Below are positions 2,778 through 27,720 of a stretch of DNA of 64,000 bases, piece by piece. The stretch covers positions 186,001 through 250,000 of IMG/VR virus record IMGVR_UViG_3300047157_000197; one strand, given 5' to 3'. The DNA comes from a virus. The notes below the pieces were generated by a model. The model was given only the letters and a program-made list of their open reading frames with translations. It did not search any database and was not told the origin of the DNA. Both the position numbers and the translations under genes were made by a program. Within the stretch, counting starts at the first letter, position 1. Every line of letters starts with the position of its first letter.

Positions 2778-3613
2778 TACAAACACCAATAGAAGAATAT
2801 CAACTTAAAGGTAAAACTGTTTATGTCAAACGAGATGATTTGGTTGGTGATGGTGTAAACTATCCACGATGGGCAAAGGTTGAAGGTATAAGAAAGATTA
2901 TAGAATCAGATTATATTGATAAATCAAAACCACTCACACACCTTTCAGTATATGGAAGTTGGACAGGTTGGACATTATCTAAAATGTGTAAAGAATATGG
3001 TATTGAGTTTATTTCATCATACCCAGATTCTAAAACATATCCACCAGAACTATTAGAAATTATTAAAAGTAATGGGGCAACATTGAATCCAATGAAACCA
3101 AATATGATGAAACTGCTTGAGAATAAATTAGGTGGTATCGCAAAAAAGAATGGTTGGCAACAACTACCATATGCTTTTAATCATCCTACTTACATAAATT
3201 ATATGCAAAATAGAATGAAAGATGTATTAGCAGAACAAGATTTTGACCACCTTGTTGTATCAATTGGTAGTGGTGTAACTGCATCTGGTTTAATTCGAGA
3301 ATTTTTACAATATAAAGATTGGAAAGATATTCTTAATAACAAAAGAAAAGTTCATACAATTACAATGTCTGCAATACATTCTACTCAAAAGATTCTCAAT
3401 GAAAATAAAGCAGGAGATTTAAACAATATTAATATTTACAAATCCCCATTTGAGTTTAATGATTTAATGGAAGATTATTCTGTTCCATTTGATTGTAATG
3501 AATTTTGGGATAAGAAAATGTGGTTTTGGTTAGAAGAAAATATTGAATCACTAGATGGTAAAATACTATTTTGGAACATTGGTGGTTCTTATCAAACATC
3601 ATTAGGATTATGA
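2768..3613 (+). CDS. PLP-dependent enzyme, fold type II (ACC deaminase-like)
   Basis: The N-terminus VYVKRDDLVG followed by WAKVEGIRKI matches the start of D-cysteine desulfhydrase/ACC deaminase family enzymes (KRDDL, then the Lys that binds pyridoxal phosphate). SIGSGVTASGLI near residues 163-174 looks like the glycine-rich phosphate-binding loop. At 281 residues it is a little short for the family (about 330). The substrate cannot be told. It overlaps the asparagine synthase gene by 10 bases and the methyltransferase-like gene by ATGA, so the three are translationally coupled. Confidence 0.65.
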   Translation: MGIIQTPIEEYQLKGKTVYVKRDDLVGDGVNYPRWAKVEGIRKIIESDYIDKSKPLTHLSVYGSWTGWTLSKMCKEYGIEFISSYPDSKTYPPELLEIIKSNGATLNPMKPNMMKLLENKLGGIAKKNGWQQLPYAFNHPTYINYMQNRMKDVLAEQDFDHLVVSIGSGVTASGLIREFLQYKDWKDILNNKRKVHTITMSAIHSTQKILNENKAGDLNNINIYKSPFEFNDLMEDYSVPFDCNEFWDKKMWFWLEENIESLDGKILFWNIGGSYQTSLGL

Positions 3614-4842
3614 CAAACGGCGAAGATATATTAGCAAAATATAGGAAGGATATATTTGAAGGAGATTTTCCAACAATTTCAGAAAATGATTGGGAAACTT
3701 TAAAAGAATCATATCCAAAAGACCAAGTAAAAGAAATGTTGGCTGAACTTTTTATGGAATATCCAATACCCTATGCAGAAATTAGTGAAGAAAATGCTTA
3801 CAATGATTACCTTAAACTAAAAGCTTTTCGCTGGATAGAATATCTAAAGGAAGGTGAGTGGTTCCCAAGAAAAGCAGCTGAATCAAAATATCCATTAACA
3901 TATAATGGAAAACAACAATTCTTTTCTCGTATTAATACAGGTAATAGGGCATCTAATTACTTTCAACAGCACAACAGATGGTCAGTAGATGGTTCAGTTT
4001 CTCCAGGTCCAAAAAGGACATGGGAAACCAAAGCATTTATGAAATCACTAATGGGTTCAGCTTATTCTTTAAAATTACCACAAGTTGGTAAAAAAGAATT
4101 AAGAACAATGATTGGGTTACGCAAGTACATATGTGCTCAGTTCAAGCCAAATGTAGCCAAGATGTTTTATGATATGAATAATGCCAAGACCGTACTTGAT
4201 TTTTCAATGGGCTGGGGAGATAGGTTAGCAGGGGCTTTCTCAAGCGAAACTGTTGAACATTATGTAGGACTAGACCCTCGTAAAGAGAATCACCCTATCT
4301 ATGAACAACAAAGAGATTTCTATACCAAACATACATCTTTCTTCGAGAACCCAACTAAAACAACGTTCTATGAATCACCAGCAGAAGATTTTGATTACTC
4401 TGAATATAATGAGTACTTTGATATAGTATTTACATCACCTCCATATTTCTCAGTAGAAAGATATTCACATGATGATACTCAAAGTTGGGTAAGATATAAA
4501 AACATTGATGTGTGGAATGAACATTTCTTACATAAGGCACTTGGAAAGATTATACCAACGGTAAAAAAAGGTGGGATAATTGCAGTAAACATAGCTGATG
4601 TATATGCAAGTTCTAAAGGAGGAAAAGATTGGTTAGAAATATGTAATCCAATGATTGATTTCCTAACATCACAAGGATTAACTTACAAAGGTTGTATTGG
4701 TATGGAAATGGCAAAGAGACCTAATAGTGGTGGAGCAGGAACTGCTAAAGATGATGGACAGTATTCAGAGGAAAGTTTAAAATTAGCAGAAGAAACACAA
4801 AATCAAACTTTTTGTGAACCAATTTGGATAATTCAGAAATAA
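3610..4842 (+). CDS. DNA methyltransferase-like protein (TSPPY motif), paralogue 1
   Basis: A SAM-binding motif I variant, VLDFSMGWGDRLAGA, lies near residues 196-210, and FTSPPYF, a motif IV of the (D/S)PP(Y/F) kind found in N4-cytosine and N6-adenine methyltransferases, near residue 275. I place the start at the ATG in ATGA at 3610, which overlaps the previous stop; this gives 410 residues. A second protein with the same two motifs is encoded at 8191-9828. The Thr-Ser before PPY resembles N4-cytosine enzymes, but the long N-terminal region (about 190 residues) is unrecognised, so activity and substrate are uncertain. Confidence 0.6.
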   Translation: MTNGEDILAKYRKDIFEGDFPTISENDWETLKESYPKDQVKEMLAELFMEYPIPYAEISEENAYNDYLKLKAFRWIEYLKEGEWFPRKAAESKYPLTYNGKQQFFSRINTGNRASNYFQQHNRWSVDGSVSPGPKRTWETKAFMKSLMGSAYSLKLPQVGKKELRTMIGLRKYICAQFKPNVAKMFYDMNNAKTVLDFSMGWGDRLAGAFSSETVEHYVGLDPRKENHPIYEQQRDFYTKHTSFFENPTKTTFYESPAEDFDYSEYNEYFDIVFTSPPYFSVERYSHDDTQSWVRYKNIDVWNEHFLHKALGKIIPTVKKGGIIAVNIADVYASSKGGKDWLEICNPMIDFLTSQGLTYKGCIGMEMAKRPNSGGAGTAKDDGQYSEESLKLAEETQNQTFCEPIWIIQK

Positions 4843-7477: not shown

Positions 7478-8191
7478 ATGGAAAAACAATCATTAAACAG
7501 GTTTGTATCAAAATACAACCTCGCAGGTTTAGTAGAATCTGTAAAGTGGGAATCAAAAGATGGTTCTCTAACTACTTCTTTTATTTCTGATGATAAATCA
7601 GTATTAGGAAGTGTAAGTATGAAAGAGTTTGATACTTCAGATGCATCTTTTGGTGTATATGATACTTCAAAACTTACAAAAATGTTATCAGTTCTTGGTA
7701 ACGATGTAGATTTCTCAATCAATGATATTGATGGGAAACCAGTTTCTTTGAAATTCAAAGATGGTTCAACAAATGTAAATTATATGTTAGCTGATTTATC
7801 AGTTATCCCTAATGTACCAGATTTGAAACAATTACCACCATTCAATGTGGAAATTAAATTAGATGCAAACTTTATCTCAAAGTTTATTAAAGCAAAAGGT
7901 GCTTTAGCTGATGAGAATAACTTTACATTTACTTGTAAAGATGGTGCTGGTCAAATTATTTTAGGTTATTCAAATATTAACACAAACAGAATTAACATAG
8001 ATGTTGACTGTACTTGTGAAAAAGATGTTGACCCAATTTCTTTTTCGGCAACATACTTAAAAGAGATACTAGTTGCAAACAAAGAGGCTACTGATGCAAT
8101 TTTAAAGATTTCATCTCAAGGATTATCACATATCTCTTTTTCAATCGATAACTACGAATCAAATTATTATTTAGTAGAAATACAAGCTTAA
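7478..8191 (+). CDS. 45: DNA polymerase sliding clamp (T4 gp45-like)
   Basis: The 237-residue protein follows the PCNA/gp45 layout of two related halves, with MLADLSVIPNVPDL (about residues 103-116) as a likely interdomain connector and repeated short beta-strand patterns. The length is close to T4 gp45 (228). In T4 the clamp tethers the polymerase and also activates late promoters together with gp55 and gp33. It has its own promoter, lies just after the polymerase gene, and its stop overlaps the next start (TAATG). The call rests on size, layout and position more than on a signature motif. Confidence 0.8.
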   Translation: MEKQSLNRFVSKYNLAGLVESVKWESKDGSLTTSFISDDKSVLGSVSMKEFDTSDASFGVYDTSKLTKMLSVLGNDVDFSINDIDGKPVSLKFKDGSTNVNYMLADLSVIPNVPDLKQLPPFNVEIKLDANFISKFIKAKGALADENNFTFTCKDGAGQIILGYSNINTNRINIDVDCTCEKDVDPISFSATYLKEILVANKEATDAILKISSQGLSHISFSIDNYESNYYLVEIQA

Positions 8192-9828
8192 TGAGTGATA
8201 AACACTTTTACGAAAGAAGTAAGTTTTCCGAGTTTAAATCCAATACTACTTATCATCAGTTGTTAGAAATGACTGATGATGAGTTTGTGGTATGGGCTCG
8301 TTTACTCCGTAAAGAGGTTACTACACAATGGGATGAAAGAGGAACTCCACCAGTAATTGGTAGAGATGAAGATGGTATTATTGAAAAGTTTAAGAAACTT
8401 AAATCTAATCCATCTAATTATTGGATTAAAGATGTAACTGATGATACAGAATCATTGGGTATCATTAAAAACTTTAATAAAGATGCATCAGTTGTAAATC
8501 AGTTTTTTCCTACAATGTTAAAAACTAAGATATCAACAGGTAAATCTGCAGATGGTGGTTTATCTATTTATGACCATTTTTCAGACCCTACGTTAGAAGA
8601 TAAGTTTGTTAAAATAATGAAACGAGCAGTTAAAAGAGATTCAATGTACTCTTGGTCTCGTTCAATTGTTGATAAGAAAGATGAAAATCCTTTTTGGACT
8701 GGACAAAATATAGTTCAATTTGTAAAAGATGTTCATAATGATAAAGTTTTTAAAGGAAAATATAAAAATTTAAGTATTGTTCTTGCAAAGGCTAAATCAT
8801 CTACATTAGAAAATTATGGTACATTCAATGAAGAGTTTGTTGGATATGGTAATTTGTATATGTCTGCAGATGAAGTGAATAAATTAGTTGATGAGGGGTA
8901 TTTAAATACAACTCAAACTTCTAATTTAGGTGAGATAGTTGATTCAACAACATCTGATGCAGGAACTGTTACTACTTATAAATATTTAATTCGTTGGTAT
9001 GATAAAACAGATGGTATCTTTCCAAAAATATTACAAGTATTTAGATTAAGTTGTGGACAACCAGCAGTAAACTTCCCAGCATTAACTGCTAAATGGATTT
9101 ATGAAAACTATACTAAACATATAGATGATGATGAACCATTACATATTTATGATTCATCAAGTGGTTGGGGTGGTAGAATCTTAGGAGCAATGAGTTCTCG
9201 TAAGAAAATTCACTATGTTGGTACAGACCCTAATCCTGATAACTTCTTAAATGAAGAAGGTATTTCTCGTTATGAGTACATGGCTAAGTTTTATAATGAT
9301 AATTGTGTAGATGATTATTCAGATAAACTTACATCATTCTTTGATGTAACACCACAAGGTAACACCTATGAGTTATTTCAAAATGGTTCAGAATTAATCT
9401 CAAACAATCCTAAGTTTCAAAAGTATAAAGGTAAATTAGATATTTCATTTACTTCACCTCCTTACTTTAATAGAGAACAATATTCACAAGATGAGAATCA
9501 ATCGTTCAAAGCTTATGGTGAATATGAAGATTGGAGAGATAACTTTTTAAGACCTACTCTAACAACAATCTATGAATATCTTAAAAACGATAGATATATA
9601 CTATGGAATATTGCAGATATTAAAATCGGTAAATCAATTTACTATCCATTAGAACAAGATTCAATTGATATCTTAAATGAATTAGGTTGTGAATATAAAG
9701 GTAAACTTAAAATGTTAATGACACGAATGGTTGGATTAGACCCATCTAAGAGTGGAATAAAAAATTCAGTTCAATACGAAGGAAAGGCATATAAATTTGA
9801 ACCAATCTTCGTTTTTTATAAACCTTAA
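8191..9828 (+). CDS. DNA methyltransferase-like protein (TSPPY motif), paralogue 2
   Basis: Around residues 325-340 the protein has YDSSSGWGGRILGAMSS, a SAM-binding motif I variant, and around residue 415 SFTSPPYFNREQYS, the catalytic motif IV type. Both match the protein at 3610-4842, so the two are paralogues. This copy is larger (545 residues), with a roughly 300-residue N-terminal region that I do not recognise. The start is coupled to the clamp stop (TAATG). It may modify DNA during replication, given its position beside polymerase and clamp. Base specificity cannot be read by eye. Confidence 0.6.
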   Translation: MSDKHFYERSKFSEFKSNTTYHQLLEMTDDEFVVWARLLRKEVTTQWDERGTPPVIGRDEDGIIEKFKKLKSNPSNYWIKDVTDDTESLGIIKNFNKDASVVNQFFPTMLKTKISTGKSADGGLSIYDHFSDPTLEDKFVKIMKRAVKRDSMYSWSRSIVDKKDENPFWTGQNIVQFVKDVHNDKVFKGKYKNLSIVLAKAKSSTLENYGTFNEEFVGYGNLYMSADEVNKLVDEGYLNTTQTSNLGEIVDSTTSDAGTVTTYKYLIRWYDKTDGIFPKILQVFRLSCGQPAVNFPALTAKWIYENYTKHIDDDEPLHIYDSSSGWGGRILGAMSSRKKIHYVGTDPNPDNFLNEEGISRYEYMAKFYNDNCVDDYSDKLTSFFDVTPQGNTYELFQNGSELISNNPKFQKYKGKLDISFTSPPYFNREQYSQDENQSFKAYGEYEDWRDNFLRPTLTTIYEYLKNDRYILWNIADIKIGKSIYYPLEQDSIDILNELGCEYKGKLKMLMTRMVGLDPSKSGIKNSVQYEGKAYKFEPIFVFYKP

Positions 9829-9842
9829 ATACTTATACAAAG

Positions 9843-9980
9843 ATGAGTGAAACTTATATTATAAATTTTACAAATTACAAAGATAACAACTATTTTACAA
9901 ACTCTACAGCAACCGCTGATAGAGTAACTTTCTATAAAACAGATACTATTAATTTTAATAAAAACGAATGTCCTTCTTAG
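9843..9980 (+). CDS. Small protein of unknown function (45 aa)
   Basis: An ATG-initiated 45-codon frame begins 14 bases after the methyltransferase-like gene. The product is rich in Asn, Thr and Tyr and has no membrane segment. Its TAG stop lies inside the left arm of the structured element before the TonB-dependent receptor. I do not recognise it, and it could be a leader peptide or a chance frame. Confidence 0.4.
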   Translation: MSETYIINFTNYKDNNYFTNSTATADRVTFYKTDTINFNKNECPS

Positions 9981-10019
9981 TAACAGGACATAAAATACCT
10001 AATAGGTATAGGTTACTAA
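9977..10019 (+). promoter_or_regulatory. Structured leader upstream of the TonB-dependent receptor
   Basis: TTAGTAAC (9977-9984) pairs perfectly with GTTACTAA (10012-10019). Within it ATACCT (9995-10000) pairs with AGGTAT (10004-10009) around an AAT loop. No T-run follows, so it does not look like an intrinsic terminator. It ends 31 bases before the receptor start and may control its expression. Confidence 0.5.
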
Positions 10020-10050
10020 AATTTAACTTAATTAATTAAAAACAATTATT

Positions 10051-12759
10051 ATGAGAAAACTATTATTAGTTGGATTGATGCTCTTAATGAGTATCACTAC
10101 TTTTGCACAAATTAGTGGAAAAGTAATTGACAGCGAAACTAATGACCCTCTACCAGGAGCAACCATTATCGTTCAAGGAACGGCGGATGGAACTGTAACT
10201 GGTTTTGATGGAACATTTAGTATCGATGTTGAAGAAGGAACAATTCTTATTGTTTCTTACTTGGGTTATGAAACTGCTGAAATTTCAGCTGGTATTGATT
10301 CGGATATTATAGGATTATATCCTGATTTGAATCAACTAGGTGAAGTAGTAGTAACTTCTGGTGTAATTGATATTGCAAAGGTAAGAACAACTCCGGTTGC
10401 TGTATCTACAATTTCACCTGCAGAAATTGCTTTAAAAGTAGGTAACCAAGAGTTTCCTGAAATCATGAACAAAACTCCAGGAGTTTACGCTACCAAACAA
10501 GGTGGTGGTTATGGTGATTCAAGAATCTCTTTAAGAGGATTCGACCAAAGAAACACATCATTCCTTATCAATGGGCAACCAGTAAATGATATGGAAAATG
10601 GATGGGTATATTGGTCTAACTGGCAAGGTTTAACAGATGTTGCGAGTGGAATCCAATTACAAAGAGGCCTTGGTGCTTCAAGATTAGCAGTACCATCAGT
10701 AGGTGGTACTGTTTCTATTTTTACAAAGGCTGCAGAAGCTAAAAAGGGCTCATCTATACAACAATCAGTTGGTAACGATGGATACTTTAAAACTACTGCA
10801 GCAGTATCAACAGGATTAAATGATAATGGGTGGGCTACATCTGTGTTACTTTCTAAGTGGCAAGGTGATGGTTATATCTATAACACAAAAGGAGAGGGTT
10901 ACACTTACTTCTTTGCGTTAGGATATGCACCTGAAGATTCAGACCATTCTGTTAACTTTTCTTTCTTAGGTGCTGGACAATGGCATCATCAAAGAGATGT
11001 ATGGGTTTCTATTAGAGATTACCAAAACTTTGGTAGTGAAGGAATCGATAGAAGATGGAATTCCAATGGTGGTGTTTTAAATGGTGAAGAATTCTCAATG
11101 AGAAGAAACTTCTATAACAAACCATTAGCAACATTAAATTGGGATTGGGAAATCAACGATAACCTTAAACTAGCTACATCATTATATGGTTCAGCTGGTA
11201 GAGGTGGTGGAACAGGACCAAGAGGTAGAAATTACTACAACTCGGAAACTGATATCTTACCTTTCAGAAAAGACCTTACAGAACACTACTTAGAAAATGG
11301 TAGAGGTTCAAGAACTCCTGAAGGATTTATTGATTTTGATGCAGTTGTTGCATTTAACCAATCAAACACAGACCCATATAGTGGTGATTTACCATTTGCT
11401 GGTCAGTTAATTGGTTCTAATGGATTCCAAGATGATGGTGTTAATAGAAGTGCACTTGTAAGAAGAGCATCTATGAACTCTCATGACTGGGTTGGAGCAA
11501 TTTCTAACTTAGAATATGAAAGTGGTGATTGGAAATACTCAATAGGAGTAGATTTAAGAAACTACACAGGTTATCATTATAGAACTATAAATAACCTAAT
11601 GGGATTAGATGGATATTACTCAACGGGTAATAAGAATTCTGCTGGTCAGATTATCAACACTACAATCGAAGCTTCTCCGTTCAATGATACAGGTATCAGA
11701 GGACCGAAGATAGATTATTATAATGTTGGTAAAGTTGGATGGCAAGGATTAAATGGTTTAGTTGAATATAACAACGAAACTATTTCAGCTGTATTACAAG
11801 TAGGTGGTTCTAATCAATCTTTCCAAAGAATTGATTACTTTGACCAACCAGGTAATCCAGAATCAGATACTAAGAATGTAGATGGTGGATACATCAAAGG
11901 TGGTGCAAACTACAATATTGATGAGAAACAAAACGTATTCTTTAATGCTGGTGTGATTTCAAGACAACCACAATTCGGTGCTGTATTCCCTAACTATGGA
12001 AATGCAATCAACGAAGATTTACAAAACGAAGAAATTAAATCATTCGAATTAGGATATGGTTTCATTGGTAGTAACTTTAAAGTTAATGTTAATGCATATT
12101 CAACAGTATGGGGTAATAGATTCGTTCAAAGAAGTTTATCTAACCAACAAGGTGTAGATGGTTCAGCTCAATTTAAAGATATCGATGTATCACACAAAGG
12201 TATTGAAATTGAAACTTCTTATAACCCAACAGATAAGTTGAGATTAAAAGGTATGTTATCAATCGGTGATTGGAAATATACTAAAGATTTCGATGCAGAA
12301 TTATTTGATGATAATCAACAATCAATCGGTACAGGTACATTATACCTAAAAGATGCTAAGGTAGGAGATGCTGCTCAGTTCACATCTTACTTCGAGGCGG
12401 ATTACCAAGTATTCGATAAACTAAGAGTTGATTTAGGATATAGATTTGTTGATGGATTATATGCTGATTATTCAATTACAGATTCAGAATTTACTCAACC
12501 TGGTAACAAGGGAGCTTTAAAATTACCATCTTATGGATTGGCTGATTTAGGAGCAACTTACAGATTTGATTTATTCGGAAATAGTAGTTCGTTTAGAGTT
12601 AATGTAAATAACTTGTTTGATACTTACTACATAGCAGAATCTAATACTAATATTCATGCTGGAGATGCTTCAGAAACATGGAATGGTGTAGATACAAGAA
12701 ACTCAGTATGGTTCGGATTCGGACGTACTTTCAATGCTTCTCTAAAAGTAAGATTCTAA
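10051..12759 (+). CDS. TonB-dependent outer-membrane receptor
   Basis: The protein has a signal peptide (residues 1-20, cleavage after TTFA), then a carboxypeptidase-regulatory-like beta domain (about 21-105; ISGKVIDSETNDPLPGA, DGTFSID), a plug domain (about 110-230; INGQPVNDM, LQRGLGASRLAVPSVGGTVSI) and a long beta-barrel to the terminal Phe902. These are hallmarks of Bacteroidetes TonB-dependent receptors, which import siderophores, vitamins or glycans with energy from TonB-ExbBD. It appears intact and full length. Its position between replication genes, with a structured leader before it and a strong terminator after it, suggests a self-contained inserted unit. The substrate is unknown. 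Confidence 0.93.
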   Translation: MRKLLLVGLMLLMSITTFAQISGKVIDSETNDPLPGATIIVQGTADGTVTGFDGTFSIDVEEGTILIVSYLGYETAEISAGIDSDIIGLYPDLNQLGEVVVTSGVIDIAKVRTTPVAVSTISPAEIALKVGNQEFPEIMNKTPGVYATKQGGGYGDSRISLRGFDQRNTSFLINGQPVNDMENGWVYWSNWQGLTDVASGIQLQRGLGASRLAVPSVGGTVSIFTKAAEAKKGSSIQQSVGNDGYFKTTAAVSTGLNDNGWATSVLLSKWQGDGYIYNTKGEGYTYFFALGYAPEDSDHSVNFSFLGAGQWHHQRDVWVSIRDYQNFGSEGIDRRWNSNGGVLNGEEFSMRRNFYNKPLATLNWDWEINDNLKLATSLYGSAGRGGGTGPRGRNYYNSETDILPFRKDLTEHYLENGRGSRTPEGFIDFDAVVAFNQSNTDPYSGDLPFAGQLIGSNGFQDDGVNRSALVRRASMNSHDWVGAISNLEYESGDWKYSIGVDLRNYTGYHYRTINNLMGLDGYYSTGNKNSAGQIINTTIEASPFNDTGIRGPKIDYYNVGKVGWQGLNGLVEYNNETISAVLQVGGSNQSFQRIDYFDQPGNPESDTKNVDGGYIKGGANYNIDEKQNVFFNAGVISRQPQFGAVFPNYGNAINEDLQNEEIKSFELGYGFIGSNFKVNVNAYSTVWGNRFVQRSLSNQQGVDGSAQFKDIDVSHKGIEIETSYNPTDKLRLKGMLSIGDWKYTKDFDAELFDDNQQSIGTGTLYLKDAKVGDAAQFTSYFEADYQVFDKLRVDLGYRFVDGLYADYSITDSEFTQPGNKGALKLPSYGLADLGATYRFDLFGNSSSFRVNVNNLFDTYYIAESNTNIHAGDASETWNGVDTRNSVWFGFGRTFNASLKVRF

Positions 12760-12771
12760 AACTTATAAAAT

Positions 12772-12797
12772 AAGGGGGATTAATTTCCCCCTTTTTT
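12772..12797 (+). terminator. Rho-independent terminator after the TonB-dependent receptor
   Basis: AAGGGGGA (12772-12779) pairs with TCCCCCTT (12786-12793) around a six-base loop, followed by a T-run to 12797. It is the clearest intrinsic terminator in the window. Confidence 0.92.
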
Positions 12798-12826
12798 ATT
12801 ATCACAAGTTTCATAAAAATTAAAAA

Positions 12827-15086: not shown

Positions 15087-15536
15087 ATGGCTAAATCTTT
15101 ATTTGACCACATAAAGGCAGTAACACAATTTCAAGACCCAAAGTATTGGGATAAACTTGAAGATAGTGATAAGAAAACTTGGAGTAACTATATGGTACAT
15201 CGTTTTCTTTCTATGAATTCCGATTGGATACAAGTTCTTTCTGAGATACAACCATATACTCAAACATTAGAACCTAAGCAGTTATATCTTGCCTTAATTG
15301 GATTAATTCCAAAAGGTAGGTATTATTTAAAATATACTAAAGGAAAGCGAGAAACTAAATATGAAAGTTTTTTATTAGAACTGATTATTCAAGATTTTCA
15401 ATGTTCTTCATTAGAAGCGTTTGATTATTGTGAAATCCTTTATTCAACAAAAGAAGGTAGAGAAAATATCAAATATATGTGTGAGAAATATGGTATTGAT
15501 AAAAAACAAATTACAAAATTAAAATTAAAGGTATGA
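15087..15536 (+). CDS. 62: Clamp loader small subunit (T4 gp62-like)
   Basis: The middle of the protein, LIGLIPKGRYYLKYTKG followed by LLELIIQDFQCSSLEAFDYCEIL, matches the arrangement around AVPRGKRYGKW and the following helices of T4 gp62. At 149 residues it is shorter than T4 gp62 (187). Gp62 is the non-ATPase partner of gp44 in the clamp loader. Position in the same operon as the gp44-like gene supports the call. The stop overlaps the next start (ATGA). Confidence 0.75.
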   Translation: MAKSLFDHIKAVTQFQDPKYWDKLEDSDKKTWSNYMVHRFLSMNSDWIQVLSEIQPYTQTLEPKQLYLALIGLIPKGRYYLKYTKGKRETKYESFLLELIIQDFQCSSLEAFDYCEILYSTKEGRENIKYMCEKYGIDKKQITKLKLKV

Positions 15537-16780
15537 GTTCAACCTATTGTAAGTTACCTTTTTTACATTTATACTCTCAACCAGATGGTGAATTAAAACC
15601 TTGTTGTATTGCAGGAGGTTTTGAAGAATCAGTTAATCTGAAAAAAATGAGTATAGAATCTGCTTTTAACTCATCTCAAATGAAAGAGTTAAGAAAAGAT
15701 ATGATAAATGGTAAACGAAACAAAGTTTGTGATGTATGTTATAAAAGAGAAGATAGTACAGGTCATTCCCCAAGAATAGATTTTAATAATAATCCACTTT
15801 GGATACAACCAAAATTAGAAGAAGATTATTCAGTTCCTTCCGATTTTCAACACATTGATATTAGATTTTCTAATTTATGTAATTTTAAATGTAGAATGTG
15901 TAATCATGATTTTTCATCTAATTGGTATGATGATTTTAAAAAATTAAAACCAAATGATGGTATTGAAAAAAAATCAAGAGTACTAAAAGTTACCGAAACC
16001 ATTGTTGAAGATTTAATCCCTCATTTAAGTAACATTAAAAGTTTCTACTTTGCAGGTGGAGAACCTCTAATAATGCCAGAACATTATAAGATTTTAAGAC
16101 ATCTATATGATACAATGAAACCGTATCAGATGTTAATTAATGGGAAACAAAAGAAAGTAAGAAATTTATCAATACATTATAATACTAATTTATCAGTAAT
16201 AAAATACGATGAACAAAGTTTAATTGATTTGTGGCAAGGATTTAGTAGAGTTTATTTATCTATATCATGTGATGGTGTTAATGAGGTAGGAGAATATCAG
16301 AGAACGGGTTTTAATACTAAAAGGTTTGATGATAATTTAGAAATAATAAAAAAGTATGCAGAACCAAAAGCTGTTTACAAAGGTGGAGTGGGTTTAATGT
16401 ATGGGTTTCAATATACAACTACTATAATGAATGTATATCATATATTTGATTTTATAGATTATATGTTAGAAAAAAACCACATAACTTCACCAGAACAAAT
16501 TGATTTCTATTACGCATGGTCTCCACTAGAATTTTCATTATCTCAAATATCAGATGAGGAAAAAGAAAAAATCACAACTTTTATAAATAAAAATAAAGAA
16601 AAATATACTGAAAAAACTCAAAATGAACTAAATGGAATCATAGAATTTATGAGTTCAAATATGGTAGTAAATGATGCAGAGGTATCTGAGTTAATGAGGT
16701 ATGATTATATAAAAGGAATTGAAGAATTACAAGGTGGTAACTTTGAAGATATATCTCCTGTAAAAATAACCTCACAATAA
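15533..16780 (+). CDS. Radical SAM protein with twitch-like N-terminus
   Basis: The radical SAM cluster motif CNFKCRMC (CxxxCxxC) lies near residues 117-124. AGGEPL near 182-187 is the GGEP motif that helps bind SAM. The N-terminus has YCKLPF and later KPCC (about residues 21-24), and CDVCYKR near 67-73, a Cys arrangement seen in twitch/SPASM-type proteins of phages. Such enzymes cleave SAM to a 5'-deoxyadenosyl radical; the substrate is unknown. The start is coupled to the gp62-like stop (ATGA). A second radical SAM protein with a similar N-terminus lies at 52460. Confidence 0.8.
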   Translation: MSSTYCKLPFLHLYSQPDGELKPCCIAGGFEESVNLKKMSIESAFNSSQMKELRKDMINGKRNKVCDVCYKREDSTGHSPRIDFNNNPLWIQPKLEEDYSVPSDFQHIDIRFSNLCNFKCRMCNHDFSSNWYDDFKKLKPNDGIEKKSRVLKVTETIVEDLIPHLSNIKSFYFAGGEPLIMPEHYKILRHLYDTMKPYQMLINGKQKKVRNLSIHYNTNLSVIKYDEQSLIDLWQGFSRVYLSISCDGVNEVGEYQRTGFNTKRFDDNLEIIKKYAEPKAVYKGGVGLMYGFQYTTTIMNVYHIFDFIDYMLEKNHITSPEQIDFYYAWSPLEFSLSQISDEEKEKITTFINKNKEKYTEKTQNELNGIIEFMSSNMVVNDAEVSELMRYDYIKGIEELQGGNFEDISPVKITSQ

Positions 16781-18691: not shown

Positions 18692-20074
18692 ATGACAAAA
18701 AAGAAAACAATTCTACTATTATCTGATGATTTAAGAATGTCATCAGGTATTGCAACAGTTTCTAAAGAAATAGTATTAGGAACATTAGATAAGTTTCATT
18801 GGGTTCAATTAGGAGCCGCAGTAAACCACCCTGAAAAAGGTAAAGAAATAGATTTAGGAAACGATGTTCGTAAAACAACAGGCATCAAAGATGCTTCTCT
18901 TAAAATCATTCCTTGGACTGGGTATGGAGATGCTAATATTCTAAGAGAGTTGATAATGAGACACCAACCTGATGCAATATTACACTTCACAGACCCAAGA
19001 TATTGGAGATGGTTGTATGATATGGAGGCAGAAGTTAGACAAAATATTCCAATCTTATTTTATCATATATGGGATGATTTACCAGACCCTGATTACAACA
19101 GAAATTACTACGAAAGTTGTGATTGGTTAGGTTGTATCTCAAGACAAACTTATGGTATCGTAAGTAGAGTTGGTAATATAGAATCAGAAACAATAAAAAC
19201 TCTTGAAGATTGGCAAGTTGATTATGTACCACATGGAATCAATTCTAATACATACAAACCAACAGAAGTTCCAAGTGATTTTAGAAAACAAGTTACAGGT
19301 GGTAAAGATTATAAGTTTGTTCTATTTTGGATGAATAGAAATATCAAACGAAAACAACCATCAGATGTTATTTGGGCATTCAAGAAATTTGTTGATGGAT
19401 TACCAGAAGAAGATAAAAATGAAGTTTGTTTAATAATGCATACTGCACCTAAAGATAAAAATGGAACAGATTTGTTTGCAGTAGCTGATAAAATAGCACC
19501 TGGTTTAGATATTAAATTTTCAACAGAAAGAATAAATCAAAAAGAACTTAATTACATTTATAATATTGCAGATTGTACAATAAATATTGCAGGTAACGAA
19601 GGATTTGGATTAGTAACTGCTGAATCAGTAATGGCAGGAACCCCAAGTATCGTAAACGTTACAGGTGGATTACAAGACCAATGTGGATTCAAGGTAGATG
19701 GTAAATATCTAACTGCAGAAGATTATAAGGAAATTGGTTCACTTCACAATTATAGAGATTGGGAAGATAAAGTAACTCATGGTGAGTGGGTAAAACCAGT
19801 TTGGCCAAGAGTTCAAACTATGGTTGGTTCTATTCCAACTCCATATATCATAGATGATAAAGTAGATGTGTATGATGTTGCAGATGCAATTAAATATTGG
19901 TATGATAAAACACCTAAAGAAAGAACTAAAGCTGGATTAAAAGGTAGAAAAGAATTTTTAGGTGAAATGGGATTAAATGCTAAAAACCAAAATAAACAAA
20001 TGGCAGATGGTATTTTAAAAACAATCAAAAATTTCAAACCAAAGAAAAAGTTTAACGTTTATAAACTTAGGTAA
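18692..20074 (+). CDS. GT-B glycosyltransferase (GT4-like)
   Basis: The 460-residue protein has the two-domain GT-B layout. The N-terminal half begins with KKTILLLSDDLRMSSGIA, and YVPHGINSNTYKP (about residues 182-194) marks the domain junction. The C-terminal half has NEGFGLVTAESVMAGTPSIV (about residues 305-325), the E-x7-E motif that binds the nucleotide-sugar. It opens the glycan cluster. The sugar donor and acceptor cannot be read. The next gene starts at its stop (TAATG). Confidence 0.88.
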   Translation: MTKKKTILLLSDDLRMSSGIATVSKEIVLGTLDKFHWVQLGAAVNHPEKGKEIDLGNDVRKTTGIKDASLKIIPWTGYGDANILRELIMRHQPDAILHFTDPRYWRWLYDMEAEVRQNIPILFYHIWDDLPDPDYNRNYYESCDWLGCISRQTYGIVSRVGNIESETIKTLEDWQVDYVPHGINSNTYKPTEVPSDFRKQVTGGKDYKFVLFWMNRNIKRKQPSDVIWAFKKFVDGLPEEDKNEVCLIMHTAPKDKNGTDLFAVADKIAPGLDIKFSTERINQKELNYIYNIADCTINIAGNEGFGLVTAESVMAGTPSIVNVTGGLQDQCGFKVDGKYLTAEDYKEIGSLHNYRDWEDKVTHGEWVKPVWPRVQTMVGSIPTPYIIDDKVDVYDVADAIKYWYDKTPKERTKAGLKGRKEFLGEMGLNAKNQNKQMADGILKTIKNFKPKKKFNVYKLR

Positions 20075-20352
20075 TGAGTAAACCAATCTTTATAGTTAGA
20101 TTACCAGGTTATTGGAATCCTAAACAATTTGATATATCAAGAAAAGCAATTTACGATAGAAAAGAACTATCAACGGATTATCATGTATTGGTATTATCTG
20201 ATAACGAAATTGAAACTATAAGATTTGAATGCTATAACTCACCCCATGAATCAGAAAAGTTAGAAGAAATAACAAAACTAACTCAAATATCAATCGAAAG
20301 ATGTTTGAGAAACGAAGAAGAAAACCGATTAAGAGAATTAGACAATGAATAA
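20074..20352 (+). CDS. Small protein of unknown function (92 aa) in the glycan cluster
   Basis: The product starts with a strand-like segment (SKPIFIVRLPGYWNP) and ends in a charged helix (RCLRNEEENRLRELDNE). No motif is recognised. It is coupled to both flanking glycosyltransferase genes (TAATG at the start, an 8-base overlap at the end), so it may work with them. Confidence 0.65.
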   Translation: MSKPIFIVRLPGYWNPKQFDISRKAIYDRKELSTDYHVLVLSDNEIETIRFECYNSPHESEKLEEITKLTQISIERCLRNEEENRLRELDNE

Positions 20353-21616
20353 ACCAATATTAGTATTTCAGGCACCAATAGCAACTAGAAGTGGTTATGG
20401 TGACCATTCAAGAGATATCTTGAAATCATTATTTGAATTAGATAAGTACGATGTTAAAGTTGTACCAACACGATGGGGAAATACCCCACAAGACCAAATC
20501 AATCCACAAACTGAGTTTGGACAAAAGATATTACAAAATATCGTAACTCAATTAAATACACAACCAGATATTTTTATACAAGTATCAGTTGCTAATGAAT
20601 TTAAAAAAGTTGGTAAATATAATATTGGAATTACTGCAGGAGTAGAAACAACATTAGCTCCTCAAGAATTTTTACAAGGTTCAAATCAAATGGATTTGAT
20701 AATTACTCCATCTGAATTTACAAAAGAGGTATTGATTAGAACTTCTTATACACAAATGGATAAAAATACTAACCAAAAAGTAGGAGAATTAAAAGTACAA
20801 AAGCCAGTTGAAGTTTTATTCGAAGGAGTAAATATCGAAATTTTTAATAGTGATACTAAAGGTACGGATATTCTTGAATCTGTTGATACAGATTTTAATT
20901 TCTTATATGTTGGTCATTGGTTACAAGGAGATTTAGGTCATGATAGAAAAGATACAGGTATGATGATTAAAACATTTTGTACAGTTTTTAAATCATTACC
21001 AAAAAATCAACAACCTGGTCTTATACTAAAAACCTCATCAGCAGGATTTTCCGTAATGGATAGAGAAGAAATTTCTAAAAAGATTAAAGATATAACAAAA
21101 GAGTTTGGTGATAAATGCCCTCCTATTCATTTAGTATTTGGAGATTTATCCGAATCAGAACTAAACTCACTATACCATAGTAAAAAAGTAAATGCAATGA
21201 TAATGTTTACCAAGGGAGAAGGATATGGTAGACCACTTGCAGAATTTGCTACAACAGGTAAACCAATAGTAGTTTCTAATTGGAGTGGATTTAAGGATTT
21301 CTTACCTAAAGAACATACAGTTTACTTAGAGGGTGAACTAAAAGAGGTTCATCAATCAGCACAAAATAAATTTTTACTAAAAGATTCGAAATGGTTTTAT
21401 GTAGATTATTCAAAAGCTGCAAGTAAGATTTTTGATGTATATAAAAATTATAAAAAATATCTAAAACAATCAGAAGGATTGAAAACAAATATTAATAAGA
21501 ATTTCACATTAAATAAAATGACAAGTAAATTAGGTGAAATACTTGATAAATATGTTAAGATTCAACCACAACCAAAGCATGTTGAATTAAAATTACCAAC
21601 TATTAAAAAACTATAA
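20345..21616 (+). CDS. GT-B glycosyltransferase (GT4-like)
   Basis: The protein of 423 residues begins KPILVFQAPIATRSGYGDH, with the glycine-rich loop of GT4 enzymes. The donor-binding region has FTKGEGYGRPLAEFATTGKP near residues 286-305, again the E-x7-E type pattern, followed by IVVSNWSGFKDF. It is a distant relative of the enzyme at 18692. It overlaps the previous gene by 8 bases and the next by 1. Confidence 0.87.
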   Translation: MNKPILVFQAPIATRSGYGDHSRDILKSLFELDKYDVKVVPTRWGNTPQDQINPQTEFGQKILQNIVTQLNTQPDIFIQVSVANEFKKVGKYNIGITAGVETTLAPQEFLQGSNQMDLIITPSEFTKEVLIRTSYTQMDKNTNQKVGELKVQKPVEVLFEGVNIEIFNSDTKGTDILESVDTDFNFLYVGHWLQGDLGHDRKDTGMMIKTFCTVFKSLPKNQQPGLILKTSSAGFSVMDREEISKKIKDITKEFGDKCPPIHLVFGDLSESELNSLYHSKKVNAMIMFTKGEGYGRPLAEFATTGKPIVVSNWSGFKDFLPKEHTVYLEGELKEVHQSAQNKFLLKDSKWFYVDYSKAASKIFDVYKNYKKYLKQSEGLKTNINKNFTLNKMTSKLGEILDKYVKIQPQPKHVELKLPTIKKL

Positions 21617-22149
21617 TGGCAAATTTTACAAGACAATATACTAAATTTTTAAAACCTGAGAGAAGAATACCTCGTAGTGAGATTAGACCAAGGAATATCT
21701 ATCGTATAACTACATATAAAGGTGGTAATCCTCCAACTAAATCAGCTGAGGAATCACGATATGTTTTTGTAATAGGAATTCTTGATAAAAAAATACATTG
21801 TATAAAAATAAATCCAATCAATCCACTACACTTTACACAATTGATTGGTAAATTAAGAGATAAAAGATTACCACTAAGTTCAGATTTACGATTAGAATTA
21901 ATGTTAAAGAAATTTGATAGAACTGGTAATTCACTTTTTGATGGATATATTAAAAATAATAAGAATGTGTATCGTAAAGACTTTAATAATTACAGAACTT
22001 ATTTTTTAGATAAAATACAGAATGTATATGAAATTAGATTTGAACAAGATATATTAGAAAATCTTTTTGGAGAAAAAACAACTACATCTGAAAAAAGAGA
22101 AATATTAAAAGAAGAACAATCAGAAATAGATTCACCGAATGACAATTAG
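21616..22149 (+). CDS. Conserved-looking protein of unknown function (177 aa)
   Basis: I do not recognise a domain. The protein is basic in its first 30 residues (LKPERRIPRSEIRPRNIYRI), mixed later, and ends in an acidic tail. It has no membrane segment or glycosyltransferase motif. It is coupled to the genes on both sides (TAATG start, 11-base overlap at the end) and so is transcribed with the glycan cluster, though its role may be unrelated. Confidence 0.7.
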   Translation: MANFTRQYTKFLKPERRIPRSEIRPRNIYRITTYKGGNPPTKSAEESRYVFVIGILDKKIHCIKINPINPLHFTQLIGKLRDKRLPLSSDLRLELMLKKFDRTGNSLFDGYIKNNKNVYRKDFNNYRTYFLDKIQNVYEIRFEQDILENLFGEKTTTSEKREILKEEQSEIDSPNDN

Positions 22150-22762
22150 TTACGCAATTACAGTTTGTAATGAATTAGAAGAAATAACAAAGTTATTAAA
22201 CTTTTTACAAACTAATATTAGAAAGGAAGATGAGATAGTAATTCAATATGATGAATCATCTGTTACAGATGGAGTTATGGATTACTTAAAGTTAATGAAT
22301 TCAATGCATGAAAATCATAAAGTAATTGGATTCCCACTTAATAAAGATTTTGCAACATTTAAAAATAATCTTAAATCTCATTGTAGTAAAGATTATATCT
22401 TTCAAATAGATGCCGATGAAATTCCACATGAATTTTTAGTAGAATATGTAGGACAAGTACTTGATGAAAACCCAGTCGATATTGTATTCGTACCAAGAGT
22501 AAATACGGTAAAAGGGTTAACACAACCACATATTGATAAATGGAAATGGAATGTAAATGAAAAGGGTTGGGTAAATTTTCCTGATTATCAAACAAGAATT
22601 TACAAAAACACACCAGATGTAACTTGGATGAACAAAGTACATGAAACAATTACAGGATATAATACATTTTCTAATTTTCCTGCAGAGGAACAATGGAGTT
22701 TGTATCATCACAAACAAATAAATAAACAAGAAAAACAAAACGAATTTTATGAAACAATTTAA
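22139..22762 (+). CDS. GT-A glycosyltransferase (GT2-like)
   Basis: The N-terminus ISYAITVCNELEEITKLL is a GT2-type opening, and QIDADEIPHEFL near residues 85-96 holds the DxD-type motif that binds the metal and nucleotide-sugar. PDYQTRIYKN and VHETITGY near residues 146-178 recall the end of the waaE/KDTX-like subset of GT2 enzymes. At 207 residues it is short but has the whole catalytic core. It overlaps the GroES gene by 14 bases. Confidence 0.8.
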   Translation: MTISYAITVCNELEEITKLLNFLQTNIRKEDEIVIQYDESSVTDGVMDYLKLMNSMHENHKVIGFPLNKDFATFKNNLKSHCSKDYIFQIDADEIPHEFLVEYVGQVLDENPVDIVFVPRVNTVKGLTQPHIDKWKWNVNEKGWVNFPDYQTRIYKNTPDVTWMNKVHETITGYNTFSNFPAEEQWSLYHHKQINKQEKQNEFYETI

Positions 22763-23048
22763 ACCATTAGGGGATAGAGTTTTAATTAAACCTATCAAAC
22801 AAGAAGAAACTAAAACAAAAAGTGGTATCATTATTTCCGAATCAATGACACAATCACAAAAAGTGAATGGTGAAGTTATAGAAATTGGTACAGGTATATT
22901 TTCTCAAAGTGGAGAGCGAATCCCTATGACAGTAAAAAAAGGTGATATTGTATTGTATGAAAAAGGACAAGGTACAAATGAAATTAAAATAGATGATGAA
23001 AAATATCTTCTATTTAATGAACATCAACTAATAGGAATAGTAAAATGA
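22749..23048 (+). CDS. groES: Co-chaperonin GroES
   Basis: The 99-residue protein begins FKPLGDRVLIKPI, the canonical GroES opening, and has SGIIISES in the mobile-loop region (residues 25-32), GEVIEIG, and KKGDIVLYEKGQG near 61-73. GroES caps the GroEL ring. T4 instead uses gp31, which replaces host GroES so the major capsid protein can fold. The gene is embedded in the glycan operon, overlapping its neighbours. It probably helps the host GroEL fold phage capsid proteins (inference). Confidence 0.95.
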   Translation: MKQFKPLGDRVLIKPIKQEETKTKSGIIISESMTQSQKVNGEVIEIGTGIFSQSGERIPMTVKKGDIVLYEKGQGTNEIKIDDEKYLLFNEHQLIGIVK

Positions 23049-23899
23049 AAAAGATATTAGTAACTGGAGGAGCTGGTTTTATAGGAACCAACCTTATAAA
23101 AAGATTATTATCAGAGGGACATCGTGTTGTCTCTTTAGATAATTATGAAACAGGTACAAAAGATAATCATGTTGAAGGGTTTGTTAAATATATAAATGCA
23201 GATATTGAAACTATTGAATACATTTCAGGAGATTTTGATTTAGTGTATCATTTAGCTGCATTAAGTAGAATACAACCTTCATTTGAAAATCCAACAGAAA
23301 CATTCAGAGTTAATGCAAAGGGAACTGAGGCAGTATGTGAATGGGCAAGAGCAAAAGGAATTAAAGTAGTATATGCGGGTTCATCTTCAAAATGGCATGA
23401 CCCATCTATCTCACCTTATGCTATGTACAAATATTTAGGTGAAGAAGTTTGTAAATTATATAGAAAAACTTATAAGTTAGATGTAGAGATATGTAGATTT
23501 TATAATGTATATGGACCAAATGAAGTAATAGAAGGAGATTGGGCTGCAGTAATTGGTATATGGAGAAGACAAGTAAGAGATAGTGAAAAGATTACAATTG
23601 TAGGTGATGGTGAACAGAGAAGAGATTTTACTCATGTTACGGATATTGTTGATGGATTATATAAGGTAGGTTTTGGAAATGAAAAACATGAAGATGCATG
23701 GGAACTTGGTTGTGGTGTAAACTATTCAATCAATGAAATGTTCGAGATGTTCCAAACAAAATTTACAGAAATAGAATCAACTTATTTACCAGACCAATTG
23801 GGTAATTATCGAAAAACTCTTAGAGAAAATAATGATACATTGTCAAGATTAAATTGGAAACCAGAAGATAGATTAAATGATTATATTCAATCTTTATGA
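23045..23899 (+). CDS. NAD-dependent epimerase/dehydratase (extended SDR)
   Basis: The Rossmann motif VTGGAGFIGTNLIKRLL lies at residues 6-22, DNYETG at 32-37, HLAALS near 75-80 and the catalytic YAMYK near 126-130. NVYGPNEV near 154-161 is typical of UDP-glucose 4-epimerase and related sugar-nucleotide enzymes. At 284 residues it is a little short for the family. It probably converts a UDP- or GDP-sugar for the neighbouring transferases. It overlaps its neighbours by ATGA at both ends. Confidence 0.88.
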   Translation: MKKILVTGGAGFIGTNLIKRLLSEGHRVVSLDNYETGTKDNHVEGFVKYINADIETIEYISGDFDLVYHLAALSRIQPSFENPTETFRVNAKGTEAVCEWARAKGIKVVYAGSSSKWHDPSISPYAMYKYLGEEVCKLYRKTYKLDVEICRFYNVYGPNEVIEGDWAAVIGIWRRQVRDSEKITIVGDGEQRRDFTHVTDIVDGLYKVGFGNEKHEDAWELGCGVNYSINEMFEMFQTKFTEIESTYLPDQLGNYRKTLRENNDTLSRLNWKPEDRLNDYIQSL

Positions 23900-24729
23900 T
23901 AGGAATAATAGGACAGGGTTTTGTTGGTAATGCAGTTTATCAAAAGTTTAAAAAGTATTATGATGTTGTAACAAATGATTTAGATGAAACTAAATCTACT
24001 GCAACCTTAAGTAATTTGGTAATGATTTGTGATACTATATTTTTATGTTTACCAACTCCTATGAAAAAGAGTGGTGAGTGTGATTTATCTATATGTGAAA
24101 ATGTATTGAGTGAAATAGATTTACTTGTAGATAATTTAGAACAATTAAGAACGATAGTAATCAAATCAACGATTCCACCAGGTACAACTGATAATTGGAA
24201 TCAAAAATACGATTCACTTAATATTGTATTTAATCCAGAGTTCTTAACTGAGAGAAATGCAGTAGAAGATTTTGAAAATCAAGATAGAATTATTTTAGGT
24301 GGTCCAAGACCAACAACAACTGAATTAAAACAATTATTTTCAAAAGTATTCCCATCGGCACATATAATCAAAACAGATTCAACTCATGCAGAGATGGTAA
24401 AGTATTTAACTAACGCATTTTTATCTACCAAAGTATCGTTTGCTAATGAAATTTATCAGATATGTAAAGTAGTAGGTGCTGATTACGATAAAGTAATTGA
24501 ATATGCAACTCAAGATGAAAGATTGGGAACATCTCATTGGAATGTACCAGGTCATGATGGAGATTTTGGATTTGGTGGACATTGTTTTCCAAAAGATTTA
24601 TCTGCACTTTTACATTTATCTGAAAAGTTTGGAACAACTAATAATGTATTATGTGCAACACAAGAAACTAACAACAATGTTAGAAAAAATAGAGATTGGG
24701 AACAAATGAAAGGAAGAGCAGTATCATGA
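23896..24729 (+). CDS. UDP-glucose/GDP-mannose dehydrogenase family protein, short form
   Basis: The NAD-binding motif GIIGQGFVGNAVYQ is at residues 3-16, KSTIPPGTTDNW near 91-102 and FNPEFLTERNAVEDF near 112-126. FGGHCFPKDL near 228-237 has the catalytic Cys of the family, which oxidises UDP-sugars to UDP-uronic acids. The usual enzyme is 400-450 residues; this one ends at 277, without the C-terminal UDP-binding domain. It may be a phage-specific minimal form or depend on a partner. The start and stop are both ATGA junctions. Confidence 0.82.
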   Translation: MIGIIGQGFVGNAVYQKFKKYYDVVTNDLDETKSTATLSNLVMICDTIFLCLPTPMKKSGECDLSICENVLSEIDLLVDNLEQLRTIVIKSTIPPGTTDNWNQKYDSLNIVFNPEFLTERNAVEDFENQDRIILGGPRPTTTELKQLFSKVFPSAHIIKTDSTHAEMVKYLTNAFLSTKVSFANEIYQICKVVGADYDKVIEYATQDERLGTSHWNVPGHDGDFGFGGHCFPKDLSALLHLSEKFGTTNNVLCATQETNNNVRKNRDWEQMKGRAVS

Positions 24730-25616
24730 AAGTAACATTTATATATGCATACGAAAACGAAGAATGGTCAACACCACTTGCACTTGCAACTGAATTTGGT
24801 TCATTGGGTTGGGAAGTAGAAATAGTTTCCATTGGTTCTAATAGATTAAGAAATTGGAATGATACTCAAATAAAGAAATGGTTATCAGAACAACCTGATA
24901 CTGATATAGTTTTATTTATGGATTGGGGAAGATTTGATTCACCTCTATTAGATAAGGTGCATCTACCAAATACATTTTGGGTACAAGAAAGTGGAGATGA
25001 CCCACAAAACTTTGATAGAAACTTTCCTAAATCAGAAAGATTTCATATAACTCTTTCACCTGATTTTGAATCAACAACAGAATATAGAAAAAGAAATCAA
25101 GATGCAGATTGGTGGACACATTTTGCAGATACACGAGTTCAATTTCCTATGGATATACCAGCTGAATATGTTGCAGTAACCACACGAGGAATGGGTAGTT
25201 CGGAATTTTTAGATACATTAACGAATCATAGTGATGGTCAAGTTGGAAATCAAAATGGATTTGATTCCAAACAACATACTGAGTTTCTTAACAAAGGATT
25301 GATGGTTATTCAGAATTCAAGATGGGGTGAAGTAACTCGTAGAATTTTTGAATCAATGGCTTGTGGTAAAATGGTTCTATGTGATAGATTACATGAAAAC
25401 AAAAAACTACACGAATTATTTATTGAGGGAGAAGATATAGTTTATTATGATGATATAGTAGATTGTATTAACAAAATGAATAAGTACCATGAAGATGGAG
25501 TTGAAAGAGAACGTATTGCAAAAAATGGATATAATAAGGTTTTAGAAAATCACACTCAAAAACAAAGAGTAGAATTTTTAATAGAAAAATATAACGAATG
25601 GAAAAACTCCCATTAA
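24726..25616 (+). CDS. Glycosyltransferase (CgeB/GT1-like)
   Basis: I start at the ATGA junction (24726), which gives 296 residues opening with KVTFIYAYENEEW. The C-terminal third has VTRRIFESMACGKMVLCDR (about residues 203-222), the donor-binding pattern of CgeB-type GT-B proteins, followed by LFIEGEDIVYYDD. The N-terminal domain is divergent and short, so the whole may be a reduced GT-B enzyme. It overlaps the next gene by 19 bases. Confidence 0.78.
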   Translation: MKVTFIYAYENEEWSTPLALATEFGSLGWEVEIVSIGSNRLRNWNDTQIKKWLSEQPDTDIVLFMDWGRFDSPLLDKVHLPNTFWVQESGDDPQNFDRNFPKSERFHITLSPDFESTTEYRKRNQDADWWTHFADTRVQFPMDIPAEYVAVTTRGMGSSEFLDTLTNHSDGQVGNQNGFDSKQHTEFLNKGLMVIQNSRWGEVTRRIFESMACGKMVLCDRLHENKKLHELFIEGEDIVYYDDIVDCINKMNKYHEDGVERERIAKNGYNKVLENHTQKQRVEFLIEKYNEWKNSH

Positions 25617-26338
25617 GTATTGGTATATTATCTTGGAAAAGTGGACAAACTTTAGTTAACACTTTACAAACTTACTTTGATAGAAAATTTCTTCATCAAG
25701 TAAATGATGTATGTATTTTATTTCAAGAAGTTTCAGAACAAGATAAACAAATAGCAGAACATTTTAATATTCCTTACATTGGATTAAATGATAATATAGG
25801 AATAGGACAGGGATTTATACAATTAACTGAACAAGCTAAAACTGATAATGTAATGGTTTTAGAACACGATTGGAAATTAATTGAAGATGCTCAAATAACA
25901 ATAGATAGAATAAAGAGTGGAATTGAGTTATTGGATAATGGATATTCTTGTATCAGATATAGACACAGAGCTAATCCTGGTCATCCACATTTTTCATTTC
26001 AATATCAAGGTAGAGAGTTAGATTATTACGATAGAGAAATAGAATGTACATCACCACATCTTTTAGATTCAGTTCATTGGTGTGATTCATTTGAAAAGTT
26101 TCCCCAACATATTGGAAAAGAAGGTGAGTACTTTACTACAACATCTCGTTATGGTAATTGGACAAACAATCCTTGTTTATATAAAAAAGATTTTTATTTA
26201 GAAACAGTAAAACAATTCGCAGGTGAGGGGATTGCATTAGAAGGTAACATCTCAAAGTGGTGGGCTAAACAAACTTACAAAGTTGCACATGGTGAGGGAT
26301 TATTCAAACATATAGATGAGGGTAAACATGGCAGATAA
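25598..26338 (+). CDS. GT-A glycosyltransferase (GT2-like)
   Basis: The N-terminus LPLSIGILSWKSGQTLVNTL is of GT2 type. VLEHDWKL near residues 85-92 sits where the DxD motif is expected, with EHD as a variant, and NDNIGIGQGF near 65-74 is the NxGxGxG loop common in these enzymes. The acceptor is unknown. It overlaps the genes on both sides. Confidence 0.7.
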   Translation: MEKLPLSIGILSWKSGQTLVNTLQTYFDRKFLHQVNDVCILFQEVSEQDKQIAEHFNIPYIGLNDNIGIGQGFIQLTEQAKTDNVMVLEHDWKLIEDAQITIDRIKSGIELLDNGYSCIRYRHRANPGHPHFSFQYQGRELDYYDREIECTSPHLLDSVHWCDSFEKFPQHIGKEGEYFTTTSRYGNWTNNPCLYKKDFYLETVKQFAGEGIALEGNISKWWAKQTYKVAHGEGLFKHIDEGKHGR

Positions 26339-27698: not shown

Positions 27699-27711
27699 TT
27701 TCGTATATTTG
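27680..27711 (+). promoter_or_regulatory. Bacteroidetes-like promoter P6 (inside glycan cluster)
   Basis: TTTG at 27680-27683, a 20-base spacer and TATATTTG at 27704-27711, just before the gene at 27721. The start codon is only ten bases after the -7 box, so the transcript leader would be very short. No dyad is seen. Confidence 0.7.
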
Positions 27712-27720
27712 TAAGTAGAT

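Follow-up and report, generated by a model that had tools for sequence, protein, structure and literature searches.

The window analysed here is a 64,000-nucleotide stretch, bases 186001-250000 of the 275,970-base IMG/VR virus record IMGVR_UViG_3300047157_000197. As the same 276-kb genome encodes a gp23 capsid protein of the T4 type, the label 'T4-like' is fair. A gene for a TonB-dependent receptor (TBDR) of 902 aa, with an ATG start, occupies positions 10051-12759 of the + strand, on which all elements of the unit described below also lie. Upstream are genes for PolB, the clamp and a methyltransferase-like protein, and downstream those for a thymidylate-kinase-like protein and a clamp loader. 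The receptor gene belongs to an inserted unit (9829-12826) comprising a short ORF, a leader, the gene itself and a terminator, and bounded by the methyltransferase-like gene (stop at 9828) and the thymidylate-kinase-like gene (start at 12827); the insertion is defined by an empty site in the related contig L176. The G+C content of the receptor gene is 0.33-0.38 vs about 0.29-0.30 in the flanks, and a single Plug domain was detected in the whole genome. The original prediction of an intact 902-residue TBDR in a T4-like phage, lying between the clamp region and the clamp loader, is borne out by the reading frame, the Pfam domains, gp23 and the neighbouring genes.

Elsewhere in the window, the methyltransferase-like proteins encoded at 8191-9828 and 3571-4842 are distant paralogues (~33% identity) placed on either side of PolB and the clamp. 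A radical SAM/SPASM protein (15533-16780) is encoded within the replication region, and is present in several relatives, not all. Two glycosyltransferase-like genes, a nucleotide-sugar epimerase and an aminotransferase lie at 18692-29799, and possibly constitute a phage-encoded surface-glycan or DNA-modification pathway.

The receptor begins with a signal-peptide-like N-terminus (10051-10110; residues 1-20, ...TTFAQ), read from the aligned sequence, followed by a CarboxypepD-regulatory-like domain (10111-10353; residues 21-101), which is found in 67 of 80 phage rows and lacking from the remainder. The TonB box GEVVVTS (10339-10359; residues 97-103), assigned by motif, precedes the plug domain (10381-10725; residues 111-225; PF07715), and a predicted 22-strand barrel (10747-12756; residues 233-902; PF00593, AF2 model and Foldseek) extends to the C-terminus, which reads ...ASLKVRF. 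The Pfam matches, CarbopepD_reg_2 at 21-101 (9e-19), Plug at 111-190 (3e-12) and the TonB_dep_Rec barrel at 378-855 (3e-11), exceed the curated cut-offs. The AF2 model has 22 barrel strands with a pLDDT of 66 and a poorly modelled plug, and is matched in Foldseek by FhuA, PqqU, FecA and OprC. With plug, 22-strand barrel and TonB box all present, the product is a TonB-dependent receptor. Assignment of a ligand from the fold was abandoned, FhuA, FecA, PqqU and OprC scoring alike.

The leader of the receptor gene (9950-10050) folds better than its shuffles (z -2.4). It contains a predicted H-type pseudoknot with an inserted hairpin (9968-10019; ~50 nt) ahead of the gene, in which stem 1 (9968-9974/9985-9991), the pseudoknot stem (9977-9984/10012-10019) and the inserted hairpin (9996-10000/10004-10008) are predicted to pair. 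In seven distinct leaders these helices are kept in 35/35, 55/56 and 42/42 pairs, the window's hairpin having 5 pairs although entered as 6 in the last count (a 1-nt loop being impossible). The inserted hairpin shows strong covariation, with 42/42 pairs within sequences vs 57% when cross-paired; support for the other two stems is weaker because they are largely invariant (cross-paired controls of 90% and 95%). The architecture arises in only 2 of 2100 shuffled leaders and in 1 of 76 leaders of bacterial orthologues, and an exact-pattern scan of IMG/VR returned five places, every one ahead of this receptor. The pseudoknot accompanies one receptor sub-clade, which includes the window. Upstream of it lies a methyltransferase gene with a 45-codon ORF, a GroES-like gene (identified by eye) or a small clamp-loader gene, and this variation indicates that the leader goes with the receptor and not with its location in the genome. 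No meaningful Rfam match was obtained at 9700-10200, and the leader is not a known riboswitch or Rfam leader.

A second leader class (L027-L032, L038, L053, L074 and L077) was considered as a structured RNA and rejected, its frame encoding a conserved short peptide as judged by eye. This short ORF, ending about IKIYLDSxKGESLYAISYV-stop, lies ~190 bases before the TBDR start in L027, L028, L029, L032, L038, L053, L074 and L077. It is also kept where the receptor differs, the receptors of L053 and L074 being without the regulatory domain, and it possibly encodes a small partner protein.

After the receptor stop codon a G-rich hairpin (12772-12797) is predicted to form an intrinsic terminator, the region 12757-12810 folding with a z of -3.3 relative to shuffles. 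It had been described as the strongest terminator in the window; this holds among hairpins outside coding sequence, where it is the only strong terminator-like one, whereas two stronger hairpins lie inside ORFs. A comparable hairpin is located 3' of nearly every phage receptor copy listed. No promoter was identified ahead of the receptor, sigma-70-like sites being fewer than in shuffles, and GGTTAYNNTTAATTTAA, examined as a promoter-like motif, occurs at chance level in the window.

In a scan of IMG/VR, relatives of the receptor were encoded by at least 436 stretches. The 80 best-scoring of these, all metagenomic and not a random sample, were fetched; about 47 have the window's replication neighbourhood in common, most with a receptor ~70-97% identical, and the reading frames of the fetched phage copies are open over the covered length. 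Sampling was made independent of the receptor by fetching contigs through the clamp loader: 27 related contigs span the region, of which 19 carry the receptor and eight do not. As some phages are without the gene, it is not essential. In L176, with a 94% identical clamp loader, the methyltransferase stop and the kinase start are separated by <20 bases, compared with ~3 kb in the window. Nor did the records of L176, L217, L224, L228, L229 and L231, which are fragments, yield a receptor at another place.

In other relatives the gene follows the large clamp-loader gene (L023, L027, L077, L193, L195, L202 and L218) or the small one (L015, L017, L025, L042 and L219). Among other phage contigs it adjoins ribonucleotide reductase genes in L028, L033, L068, L071, L079 and L080, and is near DNA ligase in L061, GTP cyclohydrolase in L078 and ThyX in L056. 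These gene orders indicate that the receptor gene is a relocatable cassette in large phages of marine Bacteroidota. The view of leader, gene and terminator as an independent unit, a putative moron, gains support from the terminator, the empty site and the several positions in relatives, whereas the expectation that such a gene would be unusual in a replication operon was wrong, replication and nucleotide genes being its usual neighbours. The contigs L011 and L020 have gene orders that look as if two related phage genomes had been joined, by recombination or in a chimeric assembly, and, being possibly chimeric, were left out as independent positions.

A few such single contigs with odd gene orders are what could be said for an artefactual join of host and phage DNA in assembly. 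Such a join almost certainly does not account for the locus, since independent metagenomes repeat the neighbourhood with 70-97% identity and even the nearest bacterial copy shares no more than 77% identity with the window's. In two contigs, genes beside a phage TBDR (L064:8849-12793 and L060:2-3267) code for a protein carrying the CHU_C type IX secretion signal domain and for a dockerin-bearing M43 peptidase; both are predicted to be phage-encoded secreted cargo.

To trace the origin of the gene, 84,980 prokaryote genomes were scanned, and 291 bacterial stretches were found to encode a relative, the best 80 being 52-75% identical and from Bacteroidota or Balneolota. Phage and bacterial copies interleave in trees. 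With bacterial loci that could be binned phage contigs taken out, 11 label changes are required on the tree, and grouping of the phage copies in one clade is rejected (p-AU 3e-52), which rules out one acquisition by a single phage ancestor. Several of the exchanges involve clearly chromosomal copies, linked to the glucose-6-phosphate isomerase gene pgi (L085, L146, L155 and L156). The window receptor itself is placed inside a phage-only clade of 27 rows (support 99), and over plug and barrel it shares 77% identity with the closest bacterial copy (median over phage copies, 78%). The interleaved tree and the phage-only clade therefore indicate that the gene moved repeatedly between host and phage, and that some phage lineages kept it long. 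About 11 host-phage exchanges are estimated, the gene having been taken from hosts many times. Synteny, the interleaved tree and the phage-only clade together describe a host-derived gene stably carried by phages, as is expected of an auxiliary metabolic gene; a benefit to the phage from raised host metabolism would be the other mark of that class. The gene is neither absent from every related phage nor nearly identical to one host gene, and the proposed database search, tree and comparison of related contigs all place it in many phages, dozens of them with the window's neighbourhood.

Purifying selection on the phage copies is strong. For the phage pairs tested, dN/dS was 0.07-0.22 overall, 0.02-0.09 in the plug and 0.05-0.25 in the surface loops. 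Loops and strands were assigned from strand positions in the AF2 model (pLDDT 66, with a poorly resolved plug). Phage copies had a mean identity among themselves of 0.757 in extracellular loops, 0.751 in strands and 0.495 in periplasmic turns; when they were compared with bacterial copies, the values were 0.663, 0.678 and 0.412. The plug has a mean identity of 0.92 among phage copies. The TonB box is retained in all syntenic phage copies, and the unusual TonB boxes of other phage copies also occur in bacterial relatives. Neither loop identity nor dN/dS gave any sign of loop changes for escape or masking. The conservation of the loops and the kept TonB box match the expectation for a working transporter with a conserved ligand, and favour that interpretation.

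The bacterial orthologues occur in several contexts. In ~30 loci of Flavobacteriaceae type the gene follows pgi, and in genomes of Schleiferiaceae type it adjoins recA. Its neighbours in L123 are SusC, SusD, GH16 and GH17 genes, an arrangement like that of laminarin loci, and in L136, L138 and L140 it is adjacent to GH16. A laminarin-linked role of the orthologues in these four loci is possible; as a lead to the ligand, a glucan or oligosaccharide is weakly suggested.

We favour the reading, with a probability of roughly 0.55, that the phage receptor is a host-derived working transporter that boosts nutrient import in the infected cell. During infection the gene would be expressed from a transcript of its own, running from leader to terminator within the replication region; the protein would be exported by Sec and then folded into the outer membrane by BAM, where its TonB box would couple it to the host's TonB-ExbBD. 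It would import a specific nutrient while the synthesis of host outer-membrane proteins is shut down or limiting, and the imported nutrient would feed phage DNA and protein synthesis. The intact domain set, carriage by 19 of 27 relatives, the low dN/dS and the kept TonB box favour transport, as does the usual company of clamp, clamp loaders, RNR, ThyX and GTP cyclohydrolase, which act in replication or nucleotide synthesis. The position of some bacterial orthologues beside SusC, SusD, GH16 and GH17 genes or after pgi points the same way. Against it, the bacterial contexts differ (pgi, recA, laminarin-like loci), and conserved loops would also fit loops that resemble those of the host for another reason.

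A rival reading is receptor replacement or superinfection exclusion, in which the phage copy would dilute, replace or compete with the host receptor (also for TonB) and so lower the adsorption or DNA entry of rivals. TBDRs are indeed phage receptors and targets of exclusion (FhuA; PMC11436027), tail spikes of crAss-like phages have been docked to them, in docking only (PMC10569736), and repeated capture from hosts would suit mimicry of a local receptor. However, the surface loops have neither excess phage-bacterial divergence nor raised dN/dS, a near-copy of a host receptor would add receptors, not remove them, and the most conserved parts are the plug and the TonB box, which are not obviously required for blocking. 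The original prediction was drawn to this function; with loops about as conserved as strands and the TonB box kept, we do not favour it and regard it as unlikely, though it deserves to be taken seriously. Loop conservation favours transport, with which an effect on phage adsorption remains compatible. An outer-membrane location would also permit shedding of the receptor in vesicles or debris, where it would act as a decoy against rival phages or toxins or sensitise resistant neighbours, a self-serving supply that is conjectured from location and that we consider very improbable. There is even less reason to believe that a host gene is merely hitch-hiking without benefit: its patchy presence (absent from 8 of 27) and repeated capture would fit, but dN/dS is well below 1, the frames are intact over the covered length, the leader is phage-specific and residence in a phage-only clade has been long.

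A second TBDR family occurs in other large phages. Intact members are encoded by MK250016 (Lak-A1, code 15; L244:3489-5558, 689 aa) and LR745206 (L245:3471-5453, 660 aa), and are 31% identical to each other. All 15 Lak records found have a member of this family, as do four other huge-phage records, LR745206 and LR756501-LR756503; in LR745206 the gene adjoins a weakly matched DNA polymerase processivity factor. The Lak-phage papers found in our literature search make no mention of 'TonB'.

TBDR carriage by large Bacteroidota phages looks convergent, and alteration of the imports of an infected cell, or of what can bind to it, has the look of a viral strategy that is common but little studied. 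We tentatively extend this, with more doubt than conviction, to the proposal that large Bacteroidota phages routinely carry energised outer-membrane receptors from at least two unrelated TBDR families, recaptured many times, and that one marine sub-clade has placed its receptor under a phage-specific, possibly ligand-sensing pseudoknot RNA, re-tooling uptake. The auxiliary genes familiar from marine phages serve mostly photosynthesis and nucleotide, phosphate and sulphur metabolism. If the proposal is true, the choice of organic nutrients that an infected Bacteroidota cell takes in, or of the phages still able to adsorb to it, is also under phage control, in hosts that are main consumers of algal polysaccharide. 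The locus further supplies a naturally occurring series of TBDR variants kept by phages, together with an RNA that is a candidate new cis-regulator.

Among known systems, the closest are the bacterial orthologues of marine Bacteroidota and Balneolota (pgi-linked Flavobacteriaceae, Roseivirga, Gracilimonas and others), which encode the full-length protein, 52-75% identical in the first genome scan. They share the domains and TonB box of the window receptor, and differ in their chromosomal contexts and in the pseudoknot leader of the window's sub-clade, which was not found with them beyond the single matching architecture. The SusC/RagA glycan transporters (PDB 5t3r and 8aa4) match in the regulatory-like domain and plug, whereas the window's barrel is unmatched by sequence: TIGR04056 scores 91 bits vs a cut-off of 368, over residues 20-177 only, and a Pfam scan of the window neighbours gave no match to a SusD-like gene. 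The only report of a phage-encoded TBDR found in our literature search, PMC9723777, describes a SusC-like TBDR of the marine megaphage Mar_Mega_1 and of LR745206 in one sentence, without comparative analysis, and proposes that it raises carbohydrate uptake. The LR745206 protein is shorter than the window's (660 aa), of the other TBDR family and without the regulatory domain; Mar_Mega_1 likewise has a phage-encoded TBDR, a likeness known from the PMC9723777 description only. Phage outer-membrane proteins are otherwise familiar from superinfection exclusion, as with T5 Llp, which acts on FhuA, and the PA-2 Lc porin. The FhuA-Llp structure was among the Foldseek matches, and Cor of phi80 and N15 is an outer-membrane superinfection-exclusion protein acting on the same TBDR (PMC11436027). 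Cor, Llp and the window receptor are all phage genes acting at the outer membrane, the window's site being predicted. However, Cor and Llp are small inhibitors and Lc is a porin, whereas the window phage encodes a whole receptor with its transport features kept.
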